Origin: Candidatus Altimarinota bacterium
Lineage (GTDB): Bacteria > Patescibacteriota > Gracilibacteria > BD1-5 > UBA6164
NCBI GenBank assembly: GCA_020631485.1
Contig: JAHDHC010000013.1
Location: 1 to 37,835 of the forward strand
Direction of reading: 5' to 3'
DNA length: 37,835 bases
The position numbers and the translations under genes are program-made. Positions 8,831-32,928 of the stretch are shown here, one piece after another (positions within the stretch are counted from its first letter, which is position 1; every line of letters begins with the position of its first letter). The notes beneath the pieces are model-generated. The model was given only the letters and a program-made list of their open reading frames with translations. It searched no databases and had not been told where the DNA came from.

Positions 8831-9949
8831 TTATCTTGTTGGAGCTCATGTTCTGTTAGTTCAAGGACCAGATCTTCATCCAGGTCATCACTGTGCTCAT
8901 CCACCTGGTCATGTCTTTGTTGATGTTTCACCATTCATACATCTCGGGCCAAATGGAAAATCTTCTGTAATAAAATATCCATATTGATCATCTACATATG
9001 CTCCATTACAAGAGTCAAGATTTCAAAGTCACGCAACAAACTCCCAATCACGATCATATGTACCATCAGGAGTGGTCCCCTCTACTGGTATCTCTGAGTC
9101 TCTATAAATACAGTTTGTCCCTGTTCTCGTATCACCCACTAATTGGTAACTTGGAGTATAGCTTCATTGTTTCGAATAAAAGAGTGGAAAACCATCTGTC
9201 GCATATCATACATGTACCACATCATCTCACTCTAGTGTCTCCATCAAAAGATCAGATACTCAATGATAGTGGTATTCTCAAGTTGGCTGTACATGTGCAT
9301 TATTAAAATCAAGTCCTATAACGTCAATAACAGTTTGTTGTGCTTCTATTCTATAGACTTCTCCACTTGCACATTCGAGTCTTTCAGCAGTCTCAAGTTG
9401 ATACTTCACTCCATTATATGCTACTCATGAATCATGTGCCCATGTAGCATTTCAAGTATATGTTGGAGTAAGATCAAGTTCCCATCTTTTATCTTGCTCA
9501 GAGATAGTATTTGGGTTTGCTTTATTTGGAAATGTTCCAACTTCATGATTTGCTAGAGCATTTGAAGTAATCGTTCTGGTATCTCAAGATATAGTTACGG
9601 CAACTTCTGTCCCATATGTGCTATCTGAGATAGTGTACTCTCATGAATATGCTCATGATATAGTTGAGTTGCTCACACCTGAAGCAGAAGTAGTATCAGC
9701 TTCTGAAAGATTATCATACAAATATCAGAGGATGTAGCTTATTCTTTCGTCTCATTCATATCTTTTTTGATATATTTCAATAGCATTGAGAACAGATCAT
9801 CTATATCCCTCTCACTTTGTATCAATGATAATTTCAAACTTTGCAACTACGAGATCCATTTTTTCTACAAGCTCAGCTGAAGGAGTATAAGCAAATACAT
9901 TCAAACATCAGAGTAAAAATACTCAGGCACTTACAATAATCTTTTTCAT
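8831..9949 (-). CDS. YHYH-domain secreted protein with Gly/Pro-rich tail
   Basis: 372 residues. The ATG at 9949 starts a signal peptide ending near NVFA. The YHYH-family signature GEYHYHG lies near residue 224, followed by VGYATDGFPLFYS near 245-258, as in that family of extracellular proteins of unknown function. The last 30 residues are Gly/Pro/Thr-rich (GPGGGAQGGPGGRSGPG), and most of their glycines are TGA-coded. The stop is TAA at 8831-8833. The family is often exported and its histidine pairs suggest metal binding, but no activity is established here. It is transcribed away from the HupE-like gene across a 234-base AT-rich spacer (9950-10183) that should hold both promoters; I could not fix their boxes. 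Confidence 0.85.
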
Positions 9950-12662: not shown

Positions 12663-12704
12663 AAAAAACTATTCTCTCGAATAGTCGTTTTATTTTTTAT
12701 GGCA
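12663..12704 (-). terminator. Terminator hairpin, copy 1 of a repeated element
   Basis: ACTATT and AATAGT flank the loop CTCTCG, with T-rich arms on both sides. It lies downstream of the DUF4236 gene on the minus strand. A near-identical 42-base copy, including the following ATGGCA, occurs at 14774-14815. Confidence 0.7.
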
Positions 12705-12764
12705 CGACGAGAAGATGAGTAAGGAGGAACTAATTGATTTATTAGAAATGACATAAAACCTAAA

Positions 12765-14024
12765 TTACTGTAACGAAATATTAACCGGTATAGTATCCTT
12801 ACATACTTCACAATACACTTCTCATTCTTTAATAAGATAATTGTATGAAAAGCTCCCTATCAATCATCAGCACTCTGTGCAATTAATCAAAACTTCTTCA
12901 TCAAGACTAGATACTTTTTGAGGAGTTTTTATATCTTGACCATTCAAATATCTTAAATACGTATCTAAATCCGTTCAGAACTTATTTAGTTTAGTAAAAT
13001 CACTAAATACAAATTCTTCATATAATCATGTTTCGGAATCAAGACATAACTTTCCATATTCAACTATTGGTATTTTTTTATTATTACTATATCTTTTATC
13101 AGGTCATTCACTTTTATTTACGTATCTCCACGTATGATCAATTATTCTAGTATCACTTGGAACTTTCTCCTCTTCAATTATTCTGTCAGGAAAATATGAA
13201 ATTTGTAGTTTTCGTATATCAAAAATATCTATTTTTTTACCATAGTTTATAACAACATGTGAGGGATACAAAAATATATCTCCACCATTCTTATTTACGA
13301 ATTTTAGTGTCTCTCATTCTGTTTGAATCTCATCTAAAGAACTAAGATAAATACTTGTTTTTTTCCTCTTTAAAATCTTATTTGCTCAACTCCTATCTTT
13401 TACTCAATCATTATCTTGAGTAGATGTGATATCCCAAATTTTTTTACATGTAATTAATTCTTTGAATGACGCTATAAGCCTACAATATATTTCTTTACTT
13501 CGGTCATCAAATTTTACGTCTAATTTTACATAACTATCTTTTTCTACTCACTTAAGTTCAACTAACATTCACTTACTCTCTAAATAATATTGAGAGTATC
13601 ATTTATGTAAAAAACCTCACAGTAAGTATAGTAAGACTAGAAACAAAAATTTTATTTGTATGATTGATATTTCATTTTTTAGAATCTTCCTCTGTTTGAA
13701 ACTATCTTTTATATCCTGCTTTATCTGCTCTCATATATCATCACTCATCTTTCAAATTTCGAGAGATTTAATCTCATGAGCTAATTCTTTATTGAAATCA
13801 GTACTACTTACTTCATCAAAATCTACATTTCATATTTTCTTTCATCAAATTTTAATTCTATCGTAGATTCAAGTTCCTGGTAGTCATACATTAAGATATT
13901 GACCATGTTTATTGAAATTAACATTAAAACCTTTTATTCATATAGTACTACTTACTCAACTTTTACTTATATTTAAAGTAAATCATGGAAATATGGTAAC
14001 TCTTTTTCTAAATTTTAATCACAT
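12765..14024 (-). CDS. DUF4236 membrane protein with C-terminal zinc ribbon
   Basis: 419 residues. The N-terminus (MGLKFRKRVTIFPGFTLNIS, then KSGVS and later GLPGTGIY) matches DUF4236, where the second residue and the Pro-Gly glycine are conserved. Here both glycines are TGA, a direct support for code 25. A hydrophobic stretch near residues 115-136 is a probable membrane span. The middle is a Lys/Asp-rich soluble region without known motifs. The C-terminus has CTECGG near residue 380 and YCEVC near 405, a four-Cys ribbon. DUF4236 is usually an N-terminal add-on of membrane or signalling proteins with no assigned activity. Stop TAA at 12765; a terminator follows. Confidence 0.85.
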
Positions 14025-14126
14025 GTTTATAGTATTATTTAGGTGTTAAAAAATTTTTTTAGTACATATTTATGTTATAAGAATATGATTAAATGTAAAA
14101 AAATATTCAATCACTATAAAATAAAA

Positions 14127-14165
14127 GAGTCAACGATTTTTTACGATAGTTGACTCACTTTTTTT
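14127..14165. terminator. Bidirectional terminator-like hairpin
   Basis: GAGTCAAC (14127-14134) pairs perfectly with GTTGACTC (14149-14156), followed by a seven-T run on the plus strand and preceded by an A-rich stretch. It lies upstream of the DUF4236 start rather than behind a gene, so it may belong to a short untranslated transcript or insulate the two regions. Confidence 0.6.
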
Positions 14166-14171
14166 GACAAT

Positions 14172-14264
14172 AAGATTCCTGTGTGTTCTAATTAGGTTAC
14201 GACACGAAATTTGAAGACATAACACAAAATAACATTTATGTTATTCACACAAGAATCTTTTTAT
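14172..14264 (+). other. Closed inverted-repeat element upstream of a small membrane gene
   Basis: AAGATTCCTGTGTG (14172-14185) pairs at 13 of 14 positions with CACACAAGAATCTT (14246-14259), which runs into a T-run. Inside lies a second palindrome, AATAACAT-TT-ATGTTATT. The outer stem plus T-run resembles a leader transcript ending in a terminator 20 bases before the small membrane gene. It could be a cis-regulatory leader, a small RNA or a mobile palindrome. A TTGACA box at 14164-14169 overlaps its left edge. Confidence 0.4.
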
Positions 14265-14284
14265 CTAATAAATAGTTCTGAGTT

Positions 14285-14575
14285 ATGTGTTCAATATTCT
14301 GTAGTAGAGCTACAGAATTATTGACAGATCCTCGTTATCTATTTCCTACAATTGGAACATTATTTCCATTAATAAGAAGTGATGATAAAATTCAAATCGT
14401 TACAGCTATTTGAATAATTGTAATCATTCTCGCATGTAGTATAATAAAAAACTGGAGATATTTATTAAAACAATTAGGTCCTATCTTACTATTAATGCTT
14501 AGAGTTATAATAGCAAGTAAAGACATAATAGTTCGATTAATATATAAATCAAAAATTTTTGTAGTTCGTAAATAA
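14285..14575 (+). CDS. Small two-span membrane protein, unknown
   Basis: 96 residues, with one TGA read as Gly in the first membrane span (IVTAIGIIVIILACSII). A second hydrophobic segment (GPILLLMLRVIIA) follows, and the C-terminus is basic (YKSKIFVVRK). An upstream in-frame TAG at 14273 limits the start. No good ribosome-binding site precedes the ATG at 14285, which lowers confidence. The stop TAA is fused to a strong terminator. The size and topology resemble holins or small toxins, but nothing specific supports that. Confidence 0.5.
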
Positions 14576-14601
14576 AGATTATCGTTAATGATAATCTTTT
14601 T
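14575..14601 (+). terminator. Rho-independent terminator of the small membrane gene
   Basis: AAGATTATC (14575-14583) pairs with GATAATCTT (14590-14598), with a TTTT run at the end. It starts at the last base of the stop codon. Its presence supports a real plus-strand transcript here. Confidence 0.75.
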
Positions 14602-14612
14602 AATTTTAATCA

Positions 14613-14630
14613 CACCCCCCTAGGAGTCGG
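14613..14630 (+). other. Possible att site: degenerate copy of the tRNA-Trp 3' end
   Basis: This stretch and the tRNA-Trp 3' segment (23983-24001) run in the same direction and share CACCCCC, CTAGGA and TCG, about 16 of 19 positions with one gap. Direct repeats of a tRNA 3' end commonly flank elements integrated into tRNA genes. The match is short and diverged, so this is a candidate only. Confidence 0.35.
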
Positions 14631-14808
14631 TCTCCATTACAGTGCGATACTCGCACAGTAATTCTTGACCCCTCGGTCATTGCTCTTATTCATCGCAATG
14701 AGTTTCTCACTTACGCTCCGCGTAGATGAGAAACCAAAGCCTCGATTCAATTCCTTGCAACAAGGTAAAAACAAAAAAACTATTCTCTCGAATAGTCGTT
14801 TTGTTTTT
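14623..14808. repeat. Cluster of six consecutive hairpins
   Basis: In under 200 bases there are stems GGAG/CTCC (14623-14635), GTGCGA/TCGCAC (14642-14656), GACC/GGTC (14667-14678), CATTGC/GCAATG (14678-14700), GTTTCTCA/TGAGAAAC with an inner ACGC/GCGT (14702-14734), and ACTATT/AATAGT (14779-14796, the second copy of the 12663 element). The block is more GC-rich than its surroundings. No protein frame explains it. It may be a structured RNA, a recombination site, or stacked palindromic repeats. Confidence 0.5.
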
Positions 14809-14812
14809 AATG

Positions 14813-15539
14813 GCAGGCTACCAGCTTGCAAAATCGCACAAATCTCAAGGAATATCTTGATAAAGCCATCTGACAGAATATTACTGATTTTCAAAAACAA
14901 ATCAATACCTGGTATGAAATCTTCGATATAAGTCTACAGAAGTGATACTTCTGACTCTAGGCTCTACCTAATAGATAATCTAACAATAGAAAATGACTAC
15001 AAAAAAACAAATTATTGCAAACAGGAAGAATTCTCAAAAATGATGAGTAAAGACTCAAGAGTGAAAGCAGAAGATAAAACTCAATGCCGTAAAACATGGA
15101 ATAACTTCAAGTCTTTATAACAGAGACCTTGAACAACAAATCATAGAAGAGTATGAGATCACAGGAACTCTCGAAAAAATGATGGTACAACACACTTGTA
15201 TCTCCAGAGCTAGGTATGAAAGAGGCATCTGTCTCGAAAATAAACTCATTATGCATATAGTAAGTCCTCCAAAGTATGAGAAGGTCTATAACTCAAAAGA
15301 GCAATGAGAAAAATACAAAGCATATAACAAGAGACTAGCCGATGATCTTGTGAATTCTCCCCTACTCAATATAGAACCAGGATATAAAGAAGAATTAGTG
15401 GAATGAGAGGAATTCTGATTAGATATGGAAAAAATAGAATATCTAGTCAGTATTATAGGAAAGTACAACCACCAAAATGAAGTACAGCTCAATAAAAATC
15501 TTAGATGATTACTAGAATATATCTCACAAAAACAATAAT
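14813..15539 (+). pseudogene. Frameshifted hypothetical gene
   Basis: Three successive frames each read as plausible lysine-rich protein and join end to end. Frame b (14813-14961) gives LKEYLDKAIGQNITDFQKQ. Frame c (about 14934-15120) gives LYLIDNLTIENDYKK and KTWNNFKSL before TAA. Frame d (from about 15110 to TAA at 15537-15539) gives LYNRDLEQQIIEEYEITG through LLEYISQKQ. Removing one T near 15115 joins c to d as FKSLYNRDL. Removing one base near 14960 joins b to c. Several TGA codons read as Gly. No family is recognised and no intact start is visible. It looks like a recently decayed gene of this lineage. Sequencing error is possible but would need two independent errors. Confidence 0.6.
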
Positions 15540-15543
15540 TTTA

Positions 15544-15571
15544 TTGACTTATAGTAAAATATTATTATAAA
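15544..15571 (+). promoter_or_regulatory. Probable sigma-70-type promoter for dapD
   Basis: TTGACT at 15544-15549 and TATAAA at 15566-15571 are separated by 16 bases, in AT-rich DNA typical of the host rather than of dapD itself. A strong ribosome-binding site (GGAGGT, 15607-15612) lies just before the ATG at 15619. Confidence 0.55.
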
Positions 15572-15618
15572 ATATAAACTCAATTCCGAGTAAATATGCA
15601 AACAAATGGAGGTAGACT

Positions 15619-16689
15619 ATGTCTATTTTTGCAGCTGGTCTGGGCTTACAGACAACAGATGGTAACGGCAATGTTTTGGAAGTTTACTTCCATAAAGCAT
15701 TCGTCAGAACCGAGCAAAATGCAAGTGCAGTCGACGATTTCGTAAAAATCGCTGGTTGGTTCTATTCGGGTGGCAATAAAACCATCTGCTTGGCTCCATA
15801 CCAAATCGATAAACTGATCGAAGCGTTTTCCGAACACACTGGTACGGTGACTTTCCTTGAAGGTGCACGCGATGCACACGAACGGATGGTCGTGACAATT
15901 CTTGAAACCGATGAAGCTCCTCAAAGTGTCGCTGAAGCGTACTTGAAGCTGACCTTACTTTCAAGCCGTGCTATACAACCACACGGGCAATCACTTGATG
16001 GGATCTTCGCTGTTTTACCAAATGTTGCATGGACAAACGAAGGTGTTGTTTCGCTGGATGAACTTCCAGCTCGACAGCTTTCTGCTCGTGCTAATGGTGG
16101 AGTACTTCATGTATATGCCGTGGACAAATTCCCTCCAATGGCTGATCATGTTGTTCCAAGTGGTGTTCGTATCGGTGATGCTTCTCGTGTCCGCTTCGGT
16201 GCACATCTCGGTGAAGGTACAACCGTGATGCATGAAGGTTTTGTGAACTTCAATGCTGGCACCAAAGGTGCTGGTATGATTGAAGGACGCATCTCCGCTG
16301 GTGTAATGGTTGGTGCAAACTCTGACCTTGGTGGAGGATGTTCAACAATGGGAACGCTCTCAGGCGGAAACAATGTTGTCATCTCTGTAGGCGAAGAATG
16401 CCTCATCGGTGCAAACGCAGGTACTGGAATCCCACTGGGTGACCGTTGCACCATTGAAGCTGGTCTCTATCTGACGGCTGGAAGCAAAGTGAGCATCCTC
16501 GATGAAAATGGGGTTGAAACATCGAACGTGAAAGCTTCTGAACTTGCTGGAAAGTCGGATCTTCTGTTCCGTCGCAACTCGCAATCTGGTAAGATCGAGT
16601 GTGTAACAAATAAGACCGCTATCCAGTTGAATGAAGAACTGCACGCAAACAACTGACAAACTCAATCCACCTGTAAAAAGGTGCCGTAA
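15619..16689 (+). CDS. dapD: 2,3,4,5-tetrahydropyridine-2,6-dicarboxylate N-succinyltransferase, foreign-looking, ends at TGA
   Basis: DapD transfers succinyl from succinyl-CoA to tetrahydrodipicolinate in lysine/diaminopimelate synthesis. The frame to the TGA at 16654-16656 is 345 residues, the length of Pseudomonas-type DapD. It shows LPNVAWTNEG, GVRIGDASRVRFG, GEGTTVMHEGFVNFNAGT, SDLGGGCSTMGTLSGG and FRRNSQSGKIEC, then an ending close to LNEALHAHN of Pseudomonas. The C-terminal half is a left-handed beta-helix hexapeptide fold. About 40 glycines are present and none is TGA. Base composition is much richer in GC than the neighbours. Under code 25 the TGA is read through, adding 11 residues after its glycine to the TAA at 16687-16689, the end given here. 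No other dap gene is in the window. Recent transfer from a standard-code proteobacterium is the simplest reading. Confidence 0.9.
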
Positions 16690-16720
16690 GGCGTAAGTGA
16701 AAGAGATAGTCTAGTAATCA

Positions 16721-16750
16721 AGGCTCCCAGGGAAACCTGGGGGCTTTTAG
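16721..16750 (+). terminator. Terminator after dapD
   Basis: GGCTCCCAGG (16722-16731) pairs with CCTGGGGGCT (16736-16745) around a GAAA loop, followed by TTTT. It is GC-rich like dapD and may have arrived with it. Confidence 0.8.
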
Positions 16751-16786
16751 TATTTACTTTTTTCTATTATCGGATACACTCAGGAA

Positions 16787-16927
16787 GCCAGAATACCTTA
16801 CATTATCAGCTTGAAAATTAGAGAGGGCAACCAAGTTGCTCTAGCTCTTTCTTTTTGTTTTCAAACTGATTAGGGTGTTCTGGCGAACATAGAGTATGCT
16901 AGGTTGTCCTCTTTTTTGTTCGCCAGA
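16787..16927. repeat. Long nested palindrome, MITE-like or structured RNA
   Basis: GCCAGAATACC (16787-16797) pairs with GGTGTTCTGGC (16874-16884). Inside, TTATCAGCTTGAAAA pairs with TTTTCAAACTGATTA, and further in GGCAAC pairs with GTTGC around a short loop. The right arm (TCTGGCGAAC, 16879-16888) can instead pair with GTTCGCCAGA (16918-16927). Two mutually exclusive stems share one arm. No coding frame explains it. Confidence 0.6.
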
Positions 16928-16971
16928 TATCCCACATTTTGGTAATAAGCTTATTTTATTACTATAAAATT

Positions 16972-17469
16972 ATGGAGAAAAACATTCAATGTCCTTATTG
17001 CCATGAGGATATAAAAAAAGATGCTCAAATTTGTAAGCATTGCTGAAAAAAAGTTCAGTTCAAAATTCAAGAATTAGAAAAGCAGAGACTAAAGCAAGAA
17101 ATGTTTGATAAAAGATCCAAAACAACTGGATGAAAGATTATCAATCATCTATCAACTCATAAATGGAAATATATTATTGCTCTGTTTTGATTATTCTTTG
17201 TATATGTTTCGACTATAAGTGAGCAAAACTATACTCATCCTACATCTGGACAATGTACTGAAGCTGTAAAGAAAGCTATTGCAGAAGATTATTATAAAAG
17301 CCCAAGCACAGTGAGTTTTCAGAGCTGTCTATGGGATTTAGACGAAGCGAGAGGAGTTACAAAGATATTATGAGTGGTAGATAGTCAAAATGGATTCGGA
17401 GCCACTGTAAGAAGCGAGGTATATTGTGAAGTTTGAAATACAACTCAATGTAAAATAACTCAGAAATAA
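16972..17469 (+). CDS. Zinc-ribbon membrane protein, hypothetical
   Basis: 165 residues. The N-terminus is a zinc ribbon with Cys7-x2-Cys10 (CPYC) and Cys21-x2-Cys24 (CKHCGKK), the last glycine being TGA. A Lys/Gln-rich linker follows, then one membrane span (IIALFGLFFVYVSTI) near residues 66-84. An extracytoplasmic C-terminal domain of about 80 residues carries Cys residues (GQCTEAV, QSCLWDL, VYCEV, TQCKIT) that could form disulfides. This resembles the common zinc-ribbon plus transmembrane proteins of unknown function. It converges on the SMEK-like gene, 29 bases away. Confidence 0.8.
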
Positions 17470-17498
17470 TAGTATAAATGGGTTTGTTTTAGAAATTA

Positions 17499-20400
17499 CT
17501 ATTCCTTATAATATTTATCATATATATCTTTATATTCTTTTAGTCACATCTCCAGTCCTTTCTCAAATATCATATTACAAATAGGACAATTCTTTCCATC
17601 GTATTTTTCATACATGATAGCAAGTAAGTCCTCTATATGTGTAAATGAGTGAACCTGAAAAACTTTATCAGTTCATTCAACTTGAAGCTTGATAAGAAGT
17701 TTTATCTGATCTACGACCTTCTCTCAATCCTTATCAAGTACTCTCTTCAAATATTCATTTATTTGTCAGTATACTCCAACATTTCTAGATTTCTCAATTA
17801 GTTTCTGGAATATTTCATTCTTATAGAGAATATCAAAATCTTCTATAAAGATGTTCTCTTTATAGAAAATAAAGCTGAGCCTATAATAAATACTCATATC
17901 TTCTTCTTTTGAAGAGTCTTTATAATTATCAAGGATATAATTTACTACATCTAATTTATCTTGTAACACTTTTGGAGCTGAGACTATTCCCCTCTGAACT
18001 CAAAAACAAAATCATAACATTGCTTGATGAGATCCTATCTTTCAACCAATAATGTTATATAAAATATCTAAGTAATCTTTGATTCCTTCTTTCTTAGCAC
18101 TATTGATTCATGAGAGTATCACATTTGATAACATTGTTCAGGCTTTATTCTGTATATCTTTATCTTCTGATGCAAGTAATCATTTCAAAAGCTTTATAAA
18201 TAATTCCTTACTATCAACATATCATAATTTAGGTAGAAACCATTCGACTATTGCTTTATCAATAGTCTTATTCCTACTATGGATGTGTTTTTTCAGAATA
18301 GATGTAGTAATTCTTTTATTGTTTTTTTGAAATAAAGATGCTTTCGAAATCAAAGTAGCTTGGATACCAAATAACTTATCATTTGATAGTTCCATGATTC
18401 TCTTCTTGAGATCCTCATCATCTGGATAGTAATATAATAAAATGGAACAAGTAATAGTTCCTAAACCCCTTACTGTATTGAGTCATAAAACCAGTCAGTC
18501 ATTATCTGAATCTTCCGTTGGATCCATACTGCTTGCAAGATCTAACACTATTCATTTGACTCACTCATATACAGAAGAGTCCTCTTTTTGTATTTCTGGA
18601 GTGAATTCTCTTCATAGAAACTCAGCGTCATCCAAAATCCTTCAAATTTCAAGTTTTGTATTTGAATCATTATCTTTCAATACAGAATATATATCTACTA
18701 ATTCTCTATAGAATGTTATATCTATCGAATCTTTATATTTCTCTTTAGAGTATTCAATAAATCACTTTACAACAAGACTAGCAAATATATATGAATCTTC
18801 TCACTTAGACGAAATATAAAGATATACATCTTTTATTTGATCTAAGTTATTCTTGAAATATCAAGAAACAATACTGCCATAATCATATAAATCCCAACCT
18901 CGTTCTTTTCATAAAACTATATCACATTTTTTATAAATTTCTGCTAAAGTTTCTCTCTTACTCAAAGTAATAAGCATGGGTTCGGCACGTCCAGTCCATG
19001 AACTCACTTCTACACTTGGCTTAGATCTAAAAGAAATTTTATATCCATCATGAGATTCTAAAAACTCGGATATTACTTTTTCTCATTCTTCTGAAAGTCT
19101 ATCCTTAGGTATGGTAGAAAGTAAATAAGCTTGGTGATACTCATGGGATTTTATTTCTTTGTCATTCACTACAAAATCCTGAAATTCTTCGATATAATCA
19201 CCTTCCTTAGAAAACATATAACTGAATATTGTTACCCCCCACCTTTCTTGGAATATATTTATGAATGGGTAGATTTCTTTTTTTTGAACTAGAGCACGAA
19301 TCAAATCTAGGTTTTGTTCTTTATTATCAACTAATGCGAAACTAATGAGTTCATAGAAAACAGAATAATCCCCTCTTTCAATAATATAACTTACAACTTC
19401 TATGAAAAAATCCCTATTTTTTGTATTTTTTCAAGCCTTTATAAGTTCTTGTCACATTGTTACAAACACATTTTCTTGTAAATTATGCCTCTTACGCCCA
19501 GAAGATAAAGTTACTTCTGGAAATGAGTAATATCCGATATAATTTATTGAATTTATTTGTTGTAAAGTTCTCTTTGAGCTAGAATAGCTATCATTTTCAT
19601 ATACCAATTTTATAAGCTTTCAGAAGTAATGAAAAGTAAGCTTATAATCAATATACAGTATTTTTCAGAAAATATCTGGAAGGTATTTTTCTTCTCGAAT
19701 ACTAGCATTTATACTAATAAGTTCATTTGATTGACTTCCCTCAAAATCAAATAAATTCATAATGCTTTCGACTTGTCATTGATCAAAGTGATCAATATTT
19801 TTTGATAAAAATTCAACTATAAATTCATGTGCCATATTTTTGCCTCTTTGTACAATCTTAGATACTAGATCTAACATCAAAGATGTATCAAAAGATTTGA
19901 AAGACTTTTGAGCTAAAAGTATAGCTACTCTTCTAAATAAAAACTCATACTCTGTTTTATCTAAGGCTGTATTGAATATACTAAGTATGACATCAGTATT
20001 TTTTCATCAAACATACTTTTCAAAATAATTAACAATAGATAGTAAATTTTGATCATCAGCATTATTTTCAATAATAATATACACTAGATTATCAATAATT
20101 TCTTGAAGTATACTAGTATTTAGTTTTCATAACTTATCAAAAAAATGAAGAATGTAGCTTGAATTCTGAGAAATATTCTCGTAAAACTTCTTAGATTCTT
20201 TAGGAGTTAGATCTTGTTTCTTGATTCTCTCTATGTTTTTGATAATGTAAGCATATACATCTGAAAAGCTATCAAAATCGTAAAGAAATGCTGAAATATC
20301 AACCACCTTCTTCTGACCTCACGATATTTCTTCTAAAATACTACTAATTGCAGGATCTTTTGAAAGAAGATCTAAATATTCTTTTGATATTTCTACAGAC

Positions 20401-21137
20401 TTAGTTCATTTTTCTTTCAACACCTCTGTTGATATCTCTAGTTTATCAGTTGTACTTACTTCTGATTTTATTATATTTTGAAAATTTGAATCTTTTATAA
20501 ACTCATCTTTATGTTCTTTTATAACCTCTAACATGATCTTGTAATCATCTTTTATAGCTTCTTTTATCAGCTTATAGTTATCCTTTCTTAGTTGAAATCA
20601 TATAAAACTATCAAATATTGGAGAAAATTCATCTAAAACTTTTTTTATTTTCTTGATCTCATCAATTGGCTTAGATTCAATTTTTTTCAACAATTCATCA
20701 AATGTAATAATGTCCTCTTTTGTAAAGTTGAATCCATCTGTTCATATTGTATGAGAGTATTTTTTCTTTATTTTATGGGAAGAACTTATAAATAAAAATT
20801 TGAGATGGGGATATTTGTTAGGCAATAAATCAACTCATTCAAGTGAGTAACCTTTTTTATATGTCTTTATGGTTTCTCTTATGTGATTTGTTGAGTCATC
20901 GACTGTAACCTGTACTCAAATTCATTTTTCATTTCAAAGGTCTATACCTGGAAAATTAGTTGAAAATTTCTCATTTAGGTCTTCTAATTCCCAATCGTAT
21001 ATCACGTTCAAAATATGCAATCAAAAATCTTCCCATTTTTCAAATTTATCAGAATATTTCATCTTTTTTACTAATTCATGCTTCAATACCAAAGAAAGCA
21101 ATATATCAGTAACTTCTCTAATCAATGATTCTTTCAT
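17499..21137 (-). CDS. Large SMEK-like / helical-repeat protein, candidate defence protein
   Basis: 1212 residues in one frame when TGA is Gly; dozens of TGA codons interrupt it otherwise. The first 110 residues resemble the SMEK domain. An N-terminal helix is followed by WELEDLNEKFSTNFPGIDLG and then GVQVTVDDS, with Asp66 and Gln76-Val-Thr78 in a D-x9-QxT arrangement like divergent PD-(D/E)xK nuclease cores. The remaining 1000 residues are mostly amphipathic helices of HEAT/ARM character, rich in Lys, Glu, Ile and Leu, ending near a CPIC motif. Large proteins with a small nuclease-like head and a helical-repeat body are frequent in defence islands. The nearby MerR-like regulator and recombinase fit a mobile setting. 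Nuclease activity is inference. The start is the ATG at 21137. Confidence 0.75.
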
Positions 21138-21311
21138 TTTTTTGTTACTTAGAAATTTATTACATTATATAAAAAAAACCTTCTTTTTCAATAGCCAATC
21201 AGAAAGTAAGAGTGGCTAATATAAGGTACGTAGGTCCGAAGTAAGTGTTTCTTGACTCATGATAGCTATCGGATAAAGTGTATACAAGATATATACTTTT
21301 TTTATAAAGCA

Positions 21312-22115
21312 ATGAAGGTAGAAAGAAAATACTATATGATCCGAGGAGATGCTTTTCAAGAAAACTTATGAAAGGTGCTAAGGGTTTTAGAGGATAAGGA
21401 ACATCAAAAAAACTATAACAATATTTTTTTAGCCAAACACTATCAAGTCAACCACTCTGATACAAAAAATCAAAAACTATATAAATGGGAACAAGAGTGA
21501 TTTTTAGAGCAGTGAAATTCATATAAAGAATGTTGGAGGAAGTATAATTTTCTTGATCTAGTATGGATAAAAGTTATTACAGCACTCAAAGAAAGACACC
21601 TAACCAATCCTGAAATTAGAAGAATAAAAGAATGCTTATTCGAACATAAAAAGATTTTTGAATTCTATGTATTTAGAACATTTGTGATGCAAGAAGAGAT
21701 AAAACTTATTATTCATGATAACTATGAGGCTGATTTTTGTTCTATGGAAGAGCTCCATCTATCTGATACTTTTCACGCTCTTCATGATAGGATCACTATT
21801 AGCTTATCAGGGATTATTGAGAATATGACTTGAAAAGAACTAGAAAGAAAGATTCCACCAACTAGAATGTTATGTGATAAAGAATATGATTATTTTCTCA
21901 AAATTTTTAGTACTTGGAATGGTAATTCTCATATCGCCTTTAGAAATGGGATGATCAAGAAATTCACTCAATCACATGGGAAACAAAATATACAAAATAC
22001 TCCAGAGATGAATCTAAGAGCAACTGTTCAAAGTAATAAAAACTCTAGGGTTTGCTTTATAACAAACAATTTCTGATGAGTTGATAATATAACAACCGAA
22101 AAGATAGGCGTTTAG
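21312..22115 (+). CDS. MerR-like winged-helix regulator
   Basis: 267 residues. Around residues 58-110, YKWEQEGFLEQG is followed by KYNFLDLVWIKVITALKERH and NPEIRRIKECL. This order (short helix-turn-helix, Trp-Glu-x-x-Gly, then DLxxIxxIxxL and EIR) is that of MerR-type DNA-binding domains. The C-terminal part (residues 120-267) is not recognised. Five or so glycines are TGA. It is transcribed divergently from the SMEK-like gene and precedes the small ORF and recombinase on the same strand, so it probably controls the element. A recombination directionality role is possible. The hairpin GCGTTTAG/CTAAACGT (22108-22127) covers its stop and may attenuate downstream expression. Confidence 0.7.
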
Positions 22116-22181
22116 GGATCTAAACGTCATTTTACGTAGGCTAGAGTGTAGGATGGCTACAGTCAAGCAATTACATAACCA

Positions 22182-22325
22182 ATGAAAAGCTTATGAGAAT
22201 ATAGGAAACTATTCAAAGCAAAATGACTTGAAATCTCACAAGAAGAAATTCAAGCAATCATCGAAAGAATCGATGAAATCGGTAACCTTTTATTTGATAA
22301 ATATATAGAGAAAAATGGAAAGTAA
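22182..22325 (+). CDS. Small protein translationally coupled to recombinase
   Basis: 47 residues (MKSLGEYRKLFKAKGLEISQ, ending in KYIEKNGK), amphipathic helical, with two TGA glycines. Its last 11 bases overlap the recombinase start, a typical coupling arrangement. It could be an accessory factor for the recombinase. No family is recognised. Confidence 0.6.
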
Positions 22326-23994
22326 AAAAACTGCAGTTATTTATACCCGCGTTTCTTCAACGAAACAAAAAAAAGAGGGTGATAGCTTGAGAAATCAGGA
22401 AAAACTCTGCCGAGAATATTGTTCAAAAAATAATATGATCGTGAAAAAAGTATTTGAAGACGACTTCACATGAACAGGAACCTCTAGACCAGGATTAGAT
22501 ACAATGTATAAATATATACAACAAAATCCTGGAATTCATTTTTGTATAATAAAAAGTATTGATCGAGGATCACGTGGTGGTGTCGGTGTATATGAAGACA
22601 TAAAATCAACTCTTGAGGAAAACTGAGTACTTCTTCGTGATACTTATTGAGTCATTCAATGAAAAGAAAAAATTCTTGATAAAATAGGGAGTCTAGAACT
22701 TGATTATAAATTTTGCTATAGCGATCCATCAAGAATGAACCAGGTCATAACTGCTATCAGCTCAGAGGAAGAAAGAATGCAAATATTGCGTCGAACAATA
22801 CCACGTGAAATTGAGCTTGAGCAACAAGGATACCATGTAAGGGAATCAAATTTCTGATATAAACTTCTAAAAGTAGATGCTGAAAGATGAAAGGCAAAAA
22901 TTCAGATTCCTCACCCTATAGAATGAGCATGGATTATAAAGGCTTTTGAATTGAAAGCTCTGTGAGGATATTCAAGTGATGAGATAGCAGAAGAGCTCAA
23001 TATATTGGGAGCAGAAACGAGACGAAAGAACTCCATTAGTTGAAAATATCTTGATACATTATTCGTAAAACCAATATACGCAGGTTTCATAGTTTCTAAA
23101 TGGACAAATCAAGAAATAATTCGAGCTCAATATCAAGGGCTTGTAAGTATAGAGTTATGGAATAAAGTAAATAAAGGTAAGCGTAGAATAGTAGAGAAAA
23201 ATGATGGAAGTGTTGAATTGATAGAATACAAAAAACAAAAAAATGAAGAATGAAAGGTAGTTCAGAAGAGAAGAAAGAAATTCGATACAAAGCTTCCTTA
23301 TAGAAACTTGATAAAGTCATCTCAGAGACCAGAAAAACTTATTTCTTGAAGCATTAGTAATACTAAAAGAAATAAACCTACAGCATACTATCATGTGATT
23401 CGAAAGAAATGAGAGAAAGGAGAAAATATTAGAAAGCAAGAATTCCATGATATGATCGAATCATTCTTTTGAGAACTTCAGATACACCCAGTACTTAGAA
23501 TACTATTTGAAGATAAATTTGATGAGATCTTTGAAGGTAATAGAGCTAAAATCAACTCTAAGCTCAAACAACTCAAAGACAGAAAAATCAAGATTACAAA
23601 AGAAATAAAACAGATAGAAGATAAGATCTATAGTTTCGATACTATAATGATGAGAACTATAAAGATTTTTGAAAAGAAGTTATGCGAATTAGAAAAAGAA
23701 GTTAGTAAGATTGAACAAAGTATTTGAGAATGTGAAGGGTCAGATTTTATCAAACCAGAGAAATTCAAGGAGTTTTGTTTTAGTGTTCTCGAACATCTAG
23801 GAGAGTTCTTGAAGCAAAGCCAATCCTTGGAAGAATTATCATTGATATTCCAGTTTGTATTCAAGGAAACACCTGAGTACAACGACATAGTTAATCGAAC
23901 ATCACCCTTACAACCAATATTCGCTCTACAAAGCAAAAAAGAACCTCAAATAATTTGAAGTTCTTCTGTAAATCGTAAATGGCACCCCCACTAG
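22315..23994 (+). CDS. Large serine recombinase / integrase
   Basis: 559 residues. The catalytic domain opens with AVIYTRVSS, placing the nucleophile at Ser14 with Arg12 beside it. EDDFTGTGTSRPGLDTM and KSIDRGSRGG (near residue 82) follow, as in the resolvase/invertase fold. A recombinase domain follows (GYSSDEIAEELNILGAETRR, KPIYAGFIVSKW). The zinc-ribbon region is present in outline (LPYRNLIKSSQ to TAYYHVIRKKGEK) but its usual cysteines are absent. A long coiled coil (KINSKLKQLKDRKIKITKEI) precedes the C-terminus. About 18 TGA codons read as Gly, so it is long adapted to this code. The last five codons and the TAG stop lie inside the 3' half of tRNA-Trp, as expected when an element inserts into a tRNA gene. 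Confidence 0.9.
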
Positions 23995-24054
23995 GAATCG
24001 AACCTAGAGCGCAGGATTTGGAGTCCTGAATTTTAGCCGTTAAACTATGGAGGT
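23980..24054 (-). tRNA. tRNA-Trp (CCA anticodon)
   Basis: Read on the minus strand: acceptor ACCTCCA pairs with TGGGGGT (one G-U pair). The D arm includes GTTTAACGGCTAAAAT. The anticodon stem CAGGA/TCCTG holds the loop CTCCAAA, giving anticodon CCA. The T arm is CTAGG-TTCGAAT-CCTAG. The 3' CCA is encoded. This reads UGG only, so it fits a code in which UGA is not Trp. The 3' end abuts and overlaps the recombinase gene. Confidence 0.9.
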
Positions 24055-32019: not shown

Positions 32020-32928
32020 TTATCAAAATATATCCCTATATTCATCGTATTCCATATCATCAAGCTCTAAATCTACAAAACTTGATCATTTTCATTCTTT
32101 TCTTAACCATTCAATTGTATCACTCTCTTGAAGAATATTCAAATTTAGATGTATGTCAATAACCACACCATTCCACCATATATGTTCCCTCTTGAAATAT
32201 TCTTCTCATTTATCTACTTTAAACAGTGTATTTCATGAAACATATGACATACTAGAGTTTGTTTTTTCTACAATTGCTTTTGTAAAAGCCAATCAATTTC
32301 AAGCTCAGATATCACTATCACATGTTATTCATCTTTGGAAGGCTAAATCAATATAGTATTCGTCTGTTTCTCATTCTATCCAATATGGACTTCATTTGAA
32401 AGATTCCTTTATTCAGATTCAATTATCCACTATGCTAATTTGAATCTGATCTATTGATTTATATGATTGTACCATAAAATAACAACCTCCTCACACCAAA
32501 TCTCATTTACTATGCTTGATTGAATTATCAATTAGTTCCCAAAAAATCCACTGAAATGCTCAAAAAACATTATTATTTTTTGTTTTGTATTCTATTCAGG
32601 CATTAATCATGATTTTTCTGGCAATTGCATCTGTTTCAGACCCCGTTGTTTCGTCTGTTATTTGCGTTATTTCAACTAAAGTGGAACAATTTTTCCTATT
32701 AATACTCGACTCATTTATTCCTAAATGTTTATGTAAATTAATTCTTACAAGATAATCTTCATTCTCACATCAAGCTGGATCTAGTTTAATAATTCATGTT
32801 TTATGTAAAGATAACATACCTAGTATAAAGACAGGTTGAAAAAAAAGTCCATAATCCTTCATCTTTATGTTAGTAACTGTATCTTCAGGAAAATTAGTGA
32901 ATTCTGCTAACTCCAGTAATCAAGCCAT
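32020..32928 (-). CDS. GHKL-type ATPase
   Basis: 302 residues. The Bergerat fold is clear: N-box FQWIFWELIDNSIKHSKG near residue 133, G1-box SIVDNGIGIKESF near 160, and G2 segment DIGAGNGLAFTKAIVE near 212. The last and other glycines are often TGA. The N-terminal 120 residues are not a histidine-phosphotransfer domain and look like a sensor or adaptor (VRINLHKHLGINESSINRKN). It is therefore closer to RsbW/HATPase_c regulators than to sensor kinases. The DUF4325 gene follows ten bases downstream. Small two-gene ATPase/STAS modules act in signalling, and some resemble defence or stress switches. Confidence 0.85.

Follow-up and report, generated by a model that had tools for sequence, protein, structure and literature searches.

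A SMEK nuclease-like head on a HEAT-like helical body: a candidate single-polypeptide defence protein on an integrative element of a patescibacterial genome

What might be the role of a 1212-residue protein that carries a small nuclease-like head on a long helical body and is encoded on a mobile element of Candidatus Altimarinota bacterium? The question is raised by a gene in contig JAHDHC010000013.1, of which the whole analyzed stretch of 37,835 nucleotides is called the window below; a first-pass annotation had read its product, here P0001, as a possible single-gene defence system. The annotated frame exists at full length, provided that the minus strand is read with code 25, in which TGA encodes glycine: it contains 39 in-frame TGA codons and is open solely under that code, and the reading of the same coordinates under table 11, which gives many stops on both strands, was discarded. 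TGA accounts for 39 of the 64 glycine codons of the gene (61%), while its share is 33–74% in the majority of the window's other non-ribosomal genes and 6–17% in the ribosomal and translation-factor genes, and the GC content of 0.28 is similar to that of neighbouring resident genes. When the window was simulated in 100 first-order Markov replicas, stretches lacking TAA and TAG reached at most 322 codons, compared with 1212 in P0001. The codon usage and the behaviour of the replicas show that the gene is genuine, well suited to code 25, and no recent import from a standard-code organism. The features of the locus are collected in Table 1.

Table 1. Features of the P0001 gene and of the surrounding element (window positions)
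Feature	Position	Strand	Basis
SMEK-HEAT protein (P0001), 1212 aa, code 25	17499..21137	-	Frame, codon use, Markov replicas
SMEK_N nuclease-like head, residues 10-154	20676..21110	-	Pfam, NCBIfam, PADLOC, model pLDDT 90
Asp66 codon	20940..20942	-	Invariant, 83/83 aligned heads
Gln76-Val77-Thr78 codons	20904..20912	-	Q and T each in 82/83 heads
His85 codon CAC	20883..20885	-	Lys in 81/83 heads
Helical-repeat (HEAT-like) body, about residues 291-1212	17502..20267	-	Low-confidence helical model, Foldseek, homology to P0003 and P0005
Body signature G-[IL]-N-[ST]-V-R-G, residues 885-891	18465..18485	-	Common to P0001, P0003 and P0005
Large serine recombinase	22315..23994	+	Pfam Resolvase and Recombinase; end overlaps tRNA-Trp
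tRNA-Trp, integration site	23980..24054	-	tRNA call
Displaced tRNA-Trp 3' end (TGCCAT) and terminator, left element end	14774..14815	-	17/17 identity to relative G487
Second displaced copy, 95% identical	12663..12704	-	42-nt repeat
MerR-type regulator-like gene, divergent from SMEK-HEAT gene	21252..22115	+	PF13411, 23.5 bits vs cut-off 21.6
Zinc-ribbon small protein, element cargo	16939..17469	+	Family scan
dapD-like gene, element cargo	15619..16656	+	Recent standard-code origin suggested
181-aa protein, element cargo	14993..15538	+	No family match

The SMEK-like nature of the head, which the annotation had proposed, was upheld by profile scores well above the curated cut-offs, namely 75.5 bits (E=4.8e-21) against a cut-off of 27 for SMEK_N of Pfam (PF21941) and 50.7 bits against 30 for NF033859 of NCBIfam, and the head also matches the Argonaute-associated REase model Aga_REase-PNTD1-PNTD2 of PADLOC (E=3.7e-17). 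These sequence profiles identify the head as a genuine SMEK_N domain. Among solved structures, 26bh_D (E=5.1e-8), the nuclease domain of the short-Argonaute system from Kordia jejudonensis, is closest to it in sequence. AlphaFold2 modelling from an input of 48 heads, which followed the annotation's suggestion to look for a PD-(D/E)XK core, gave a confident model of nuclease type (mean pLDDT, 90; pTM, 0.85) and not a fold of another kind. When the PDB matches to the model were re-ranked (VIA), the restriction-endonuclease-like proteins LlaBIII (Z 7.6), EcoT38I (7.3), AF1548 (6.8), and FokI (6.0) took the lead, with every Z below 8, so that the structure by itself supports a PD-(D/E)XK fold rather than proves it; Foldseek with the same model returned no significant row, the best being Shedu (E=1.1). 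The match with 26bh_D and the supportive model together point to a restriction-endonuclease-like PD-(D/E)XK core.

Asp66, Gln76, and Thr78, the residues singled out by the annotation, lie at the expected positions and are intact in P0001, as are Glu36, Asn55, and Asn61, and the first three are the strongly conserved positions of the 83 aligned SMEK heads (Table 1). In the SPARDA effector DREN, the catalytic set consists of D41, Q60, and K62 (PMC12205087). We infer that in SMEK heads the lysine has shifted to the following helix, at position 85, which makes the near-invariant Lys85 a candidate catalytic lysine. P0001 has His85 instead, a replacement overlooked by the annotation and encoded by a codon at least two base changes away from any lysine codon, and has no lysine at position 84 or 86. 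The activity of its head is uncertain because of this replacement, and the nuclease-like assignment, in agreement with the match to 26bh_D and with the PD-(D/E)XK enzymes heading the structural list, is weakened at this one point. The histidine bears on activity and not on descent, which by sequence rests on the profile score. The only other exception to Lys85 is a 323-aa SMEK-domain protein (L044:4124-5095), in which Gln76 is replaced by Ser and Lys85 by Tyr, and which is possibly catalytically dead judging from these substitutions.

One alternative, then, is that the head of P0001 is dead or altered, and that with His85 it binds DNA or RNA uncut and acts as a decoy or a regulator, or is a degenerated relic. 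The rarity of the exchange speaks for such a role, as does the additional loss of Gln76 in L044, but the rest of the conserved set is kept in P0001, 1212 open codons at 28% GC indicate selection, and PD-(D/E)XK enzymes can move or replace their catalytic lysine. We consider this alternative quite unlikely.

The remainder of the protein is predicted to be all-helical from residue 158 to the end, with low confidence (pLDDT about 57). The best Foldseek rows for this part, SF3b1, transportin, the condensin HEAT subunit, CAND1, and importins, probably represent HEAT/ARM solenoids in general, and the solenoid assignment, drawn from helix content and these generic matches, is of low confidence. The body profile also hit designed repeat proteins in the PDB, though weakly, and these hits were dismissed as generic repeat similarity. 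The HEAT-like scaffold of the annotation gains from a relative, P0005, which scores above the Pfam cut-off for HEAT_2. P0005 (1155 aa; profile search, E=1.9e-29) and P0003 (1038 aa; 24% identity to P0001 over 531 aa, E=2e-26 in the phylum search) are both patescibacterial, and with P0001 they make up the body family as found. The bodies of P0003 and P0005 align over 772 columns (hhalign, E=1.7e-40) and those of P0001 and P0003 at E=1.3e-13, while the direct comparison of P0001 with P0005 is weak (BLAST, E=4e-6); all three possess the G-[IL]-N-[ST]-V-R-G signature. The Walker A motif [GA]xxxxGK[ST] is absent from all three proteins, and P0001 gave no match to an NTPase family.

Since many chromatin and transport proteins contain HEAT-like solenoids, as the Foldseek rows themselves illustrate, P0001 might be thought of as a housekeeping protein for DNA repair or associated with the chromosome. 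Such a protein should be widely conserved, but the body type occurs in 3 of 379 genomes of the phylum and is missing from the other 376, and P0001 is found in one of 353 genomes of its class, none of the 352 class-mates having the body. The head family, moreover, is found in conflict systems and the gene resides on a mobile element, both described below, which makes a housekeeping role highly improbable.

The assignment of P0001 to defence comes mainly from the exchange of heads on the common body, which is a pattern of immune receptors. Avs, CBASS, and short Argonautes are all marked by such swapping of heads over one sensor. The heads of P0001, P0003, and P0005, whose diversity the annotation had likewise overlooked, have no mutual similarity detectable by hhalign. 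That of P0005 matches HamA (E=2.8e-8), with the motif DDIE...ECK, and HamA is the effector nuclease of Hachiman according to PMC12278908. The head of P0003 matches no family and contains a D...QxK motif, from which we infer a PD-(D/E)XK domain. P0003 adjoins a type IIG restriction-modification (RM) enzyme and a PLD-SNF2 helicase, in a defence island (L006:1-19001, G165:C22) that also includes an HSDR_N-type nuclease and two NucS-like/PDC-S11 proteins. A large serine recombinase is encoded near all three body genes, at a distance of about 5 kb in the case of P0005 and of about 19 kb in that of P0003, the latter being recognized by eye from the sequence; in the window, it adjoins the divergent neighbour of the P0001 gene. 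In the neighbourhoods examined, the homologues lie outside housekeeping loci, to which the annotation had considered that they might be confined.

The settings of SMEK heads elsewhere agree with this assignment. The motif NFP[GSA][IV]DL, sought in 84,980 species genomes, yielded 80 loci. Among these and the plasmid matches, proteins of about 325 aa are in part encoded in ABC-three-component (ABC-3C) operons, those of about 500 aa include the SMEK-APAZ protein of K. jejudonensis (L052), those of about 885 aa are encoded near radical-SAM genes, and those of 1000–1560 aa have NACHT/STAND NTPase domains. SMEK heads thus occur on APAZ proteins beside Argonaute, on STAND NTPases, and on ABC-3C proteins, all of which are conflict systems, and KjAgo with SMEK-APAZ is cited for collateral nuclease activity in PMC12205087. 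The body of P0001 was absent from all other SMEK proteins tested (phmmer and profile on all, hhalign on nine), from 42 SMEK-bearing genomes, and from 200 genomes of one proteobacterial sample. Plasmids yielded SMEK heads and not the body, and phages and viral contigs yielded neither, an absence that is weak for the viral contigs, which were scanned by short patterns.

The mobile element surmised by the annotation is supported by a serine recombinase abutting tRNA-Trp and, at a distance of 9.2 kb, by a displaced copy of the tRNA 3' end that is accompanied by a terminator. A 42-nt repeat, which on the minus strand reads TGCCAT followed by a terminator hairpin, is present in two copies, and the one closer to the P0001 gene is identical over 17/17 positions (TGCCATTAAAAACAAAA) to the tRNA-Trp 3' end and the sequence directly after it in a relative, G487 (L132). 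From these sequences, both copies are displaced tRNA-Trp 3' ends. No long repeat of the tRNA-Trp 3' end came up when one was sought directly, and the element end was located through the terminator repeat alone; the element accordingly spans about 14810-23985, or 9.2 kb, with six genes. The 2.1-kb segment between the copies (12663-14815) carries a DUF4236 gene and is a probable older insertion, in tandem, at the same tRNA-Trp. In the relatives G479 and G497, tRNA-Trp 3' ends are duplicated in the same way; tRNA-Trp is followed in G479 by a type IIG RM gene (PADLOC, E=1.3e-112), with a PDC-M04A-type protein also there, and in G499 by a serine recombinase related to that of the window. In the host's family, the tRNA-Trp located behind tsf serves as a hotspot of integration (L127:2204-7387, L129:15800-16143, L133:15180-16923).

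Within its own element, the P0001 gene has no known defence gene beside it. The dapD-like cargo gene has a GC content of 0.47, no TGA among its 42 glycine codons, and 58–60% identity to actinobacterial homologues in plasmid records, and by its sequence seems to have been imported recently from a standard-code donor; it ends in TGA, which in this host would be read as glycine and add 11 residues. A PADLOC match to DrmA at 32020-32928 was dismissed as a match of HATPase_c. By eye, the minus strand of the window also encodes a giant secreted repeat protein of more than 2436 aa with DUF11-like repeats, running off the contig end (2-7309), and a secreted-type protein of 372 aa with YHYHG (8831-9949) beside a HupE/UreJ-like membrane protein.

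The position of the gene on a small element with a recombinase of its own, in a tRNA hotspot that other elements use as well, together with the recombinases near its body relatives, suggests another possibility, that P0001 guards the integrative element against competing elements or plasmids and not the cell against phage. P0003, however, has restriction and helicase genes of a general kind as neighbours, an antitoxin-like partner gene is not evident, and the mechanism would be the same in either case, with the target alone differing. Such a role seems unlikely.

P0001 can be compared with several known systems, in each of which it lacks a defining feature. The SPARDA-type short Argonaute with SMEK-APAZ from K. 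jejudonensis has an N-terminal SMEK nuclease head in common with P0001, which has a helical body of about 1000 residues in place of the APAZ domain; no relation was found between this body and the APAZ region, no Piwi match in the host genome (93% complete), and no Argonaute neighbour. SMEK-STAND NTPases (Avs-like; for example L027, L025, and P0004 of S. equorum) likewise combine a SMEK head and a large C-terminal region in one polypeptide, but they contain a NACHT/AAA NTPase, in contrast to the three body-family proteins, and their bodies have no detectable relation to that of P0001. The SMEK-type protein of ABC-3C, at about 325 aa, is far shorter and works with an ABC ATPase partner, none of which was seen among the element genes scanned. 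Hachiman, whose HamA (DUF1837) is matched by the P0005 head, is a two-gene nuclease-helicase complex, whereas P0005 joins this head to a HEAT-like body with no helicase domain. DSR2 resembles P0001 in being a single-gene protein of about 1000–1200 residues with an N-terminal effector, and its NTPase-free helical/HEAT body (PMC11263360) would have a counterpart in the predicted helical body of P0001, but its head is a SIR2 NADase and not of the SMEK nuclease type, and no sequence similarity to P0001 was found. P0001 is not a member of SPARDA, STAND, ABC-3C, or DSR2, and in the literature searched, largely open-access, no paper dealt with SMEK or HamA heads on HEAT bodies and none contained "SIR2-HEAT".

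On the basis of this anatomy, we propose, with a probability of roughly 0.6, that P0001 is a single-polypeptide protein against phages or other invaders, composed of a HEAT-like sensor body and a nuclease head and carried by a serine-recombinase element. It likely works as an effector-plus-sensor immune protein in the manner of DSR2 or SPARDA, and the sensing, activation, and cutting set out below are proposed by analogy with these two. In DSR2, the phage tail tube protein is held in a cavity formed by the HEAT and C-terminal parts, upon which the N-terminal effector is released (PMC11263360), and in SPARDA, the nuclease heads cut after oligomerization (PMC12205087). Similarly, the body of P0001 might be both sensor and scaffold, keeping the N-terminal SMEK domain inactive until it engages a component of the invader, the likeliest being a phage protein, by comparison with DSR2. 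Binding would rearrange or oligomerize the body so that the PD-(D/E)XK heads meet, and the assembled heads would then cut nucleic acid, by which the infection would be stopped or the cell killed.

With P0001, P0003, and P0005, a modular family may have come into view for the first time. There is about an even chance, in our estimation, that Patescibacteria possess an undescribed family of immune proteins, free of both NTPase and guide, in which one HEAT-like body with the G-[IL]-N-[ST]-V-R-G signature accepts interchangeable nuclease heads borrowed from other defence systems (SMEK from short Argonautes, HamA from Hachiman, and a third with QxK) and is spread by serine-recombinase elements. The view of the first-pass annotation that little immunity is described in this phylum goes too far, since CRISPR-Cas is present in 16 of 44 Gracilibacteria genomes (PMC10746230). 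If the proposal is true, a candidate immune family would be added to a phylum in which CRISPR-Cas is the main thing described, and two known defence nucleases, SMEK and HamA, would be tied to a new sensor. The P0001 gene and its relatives are short enough for direct synthesis and testing, and head swapping on an NTPase-free helical body would represent a compact receptor design in very small genomes.
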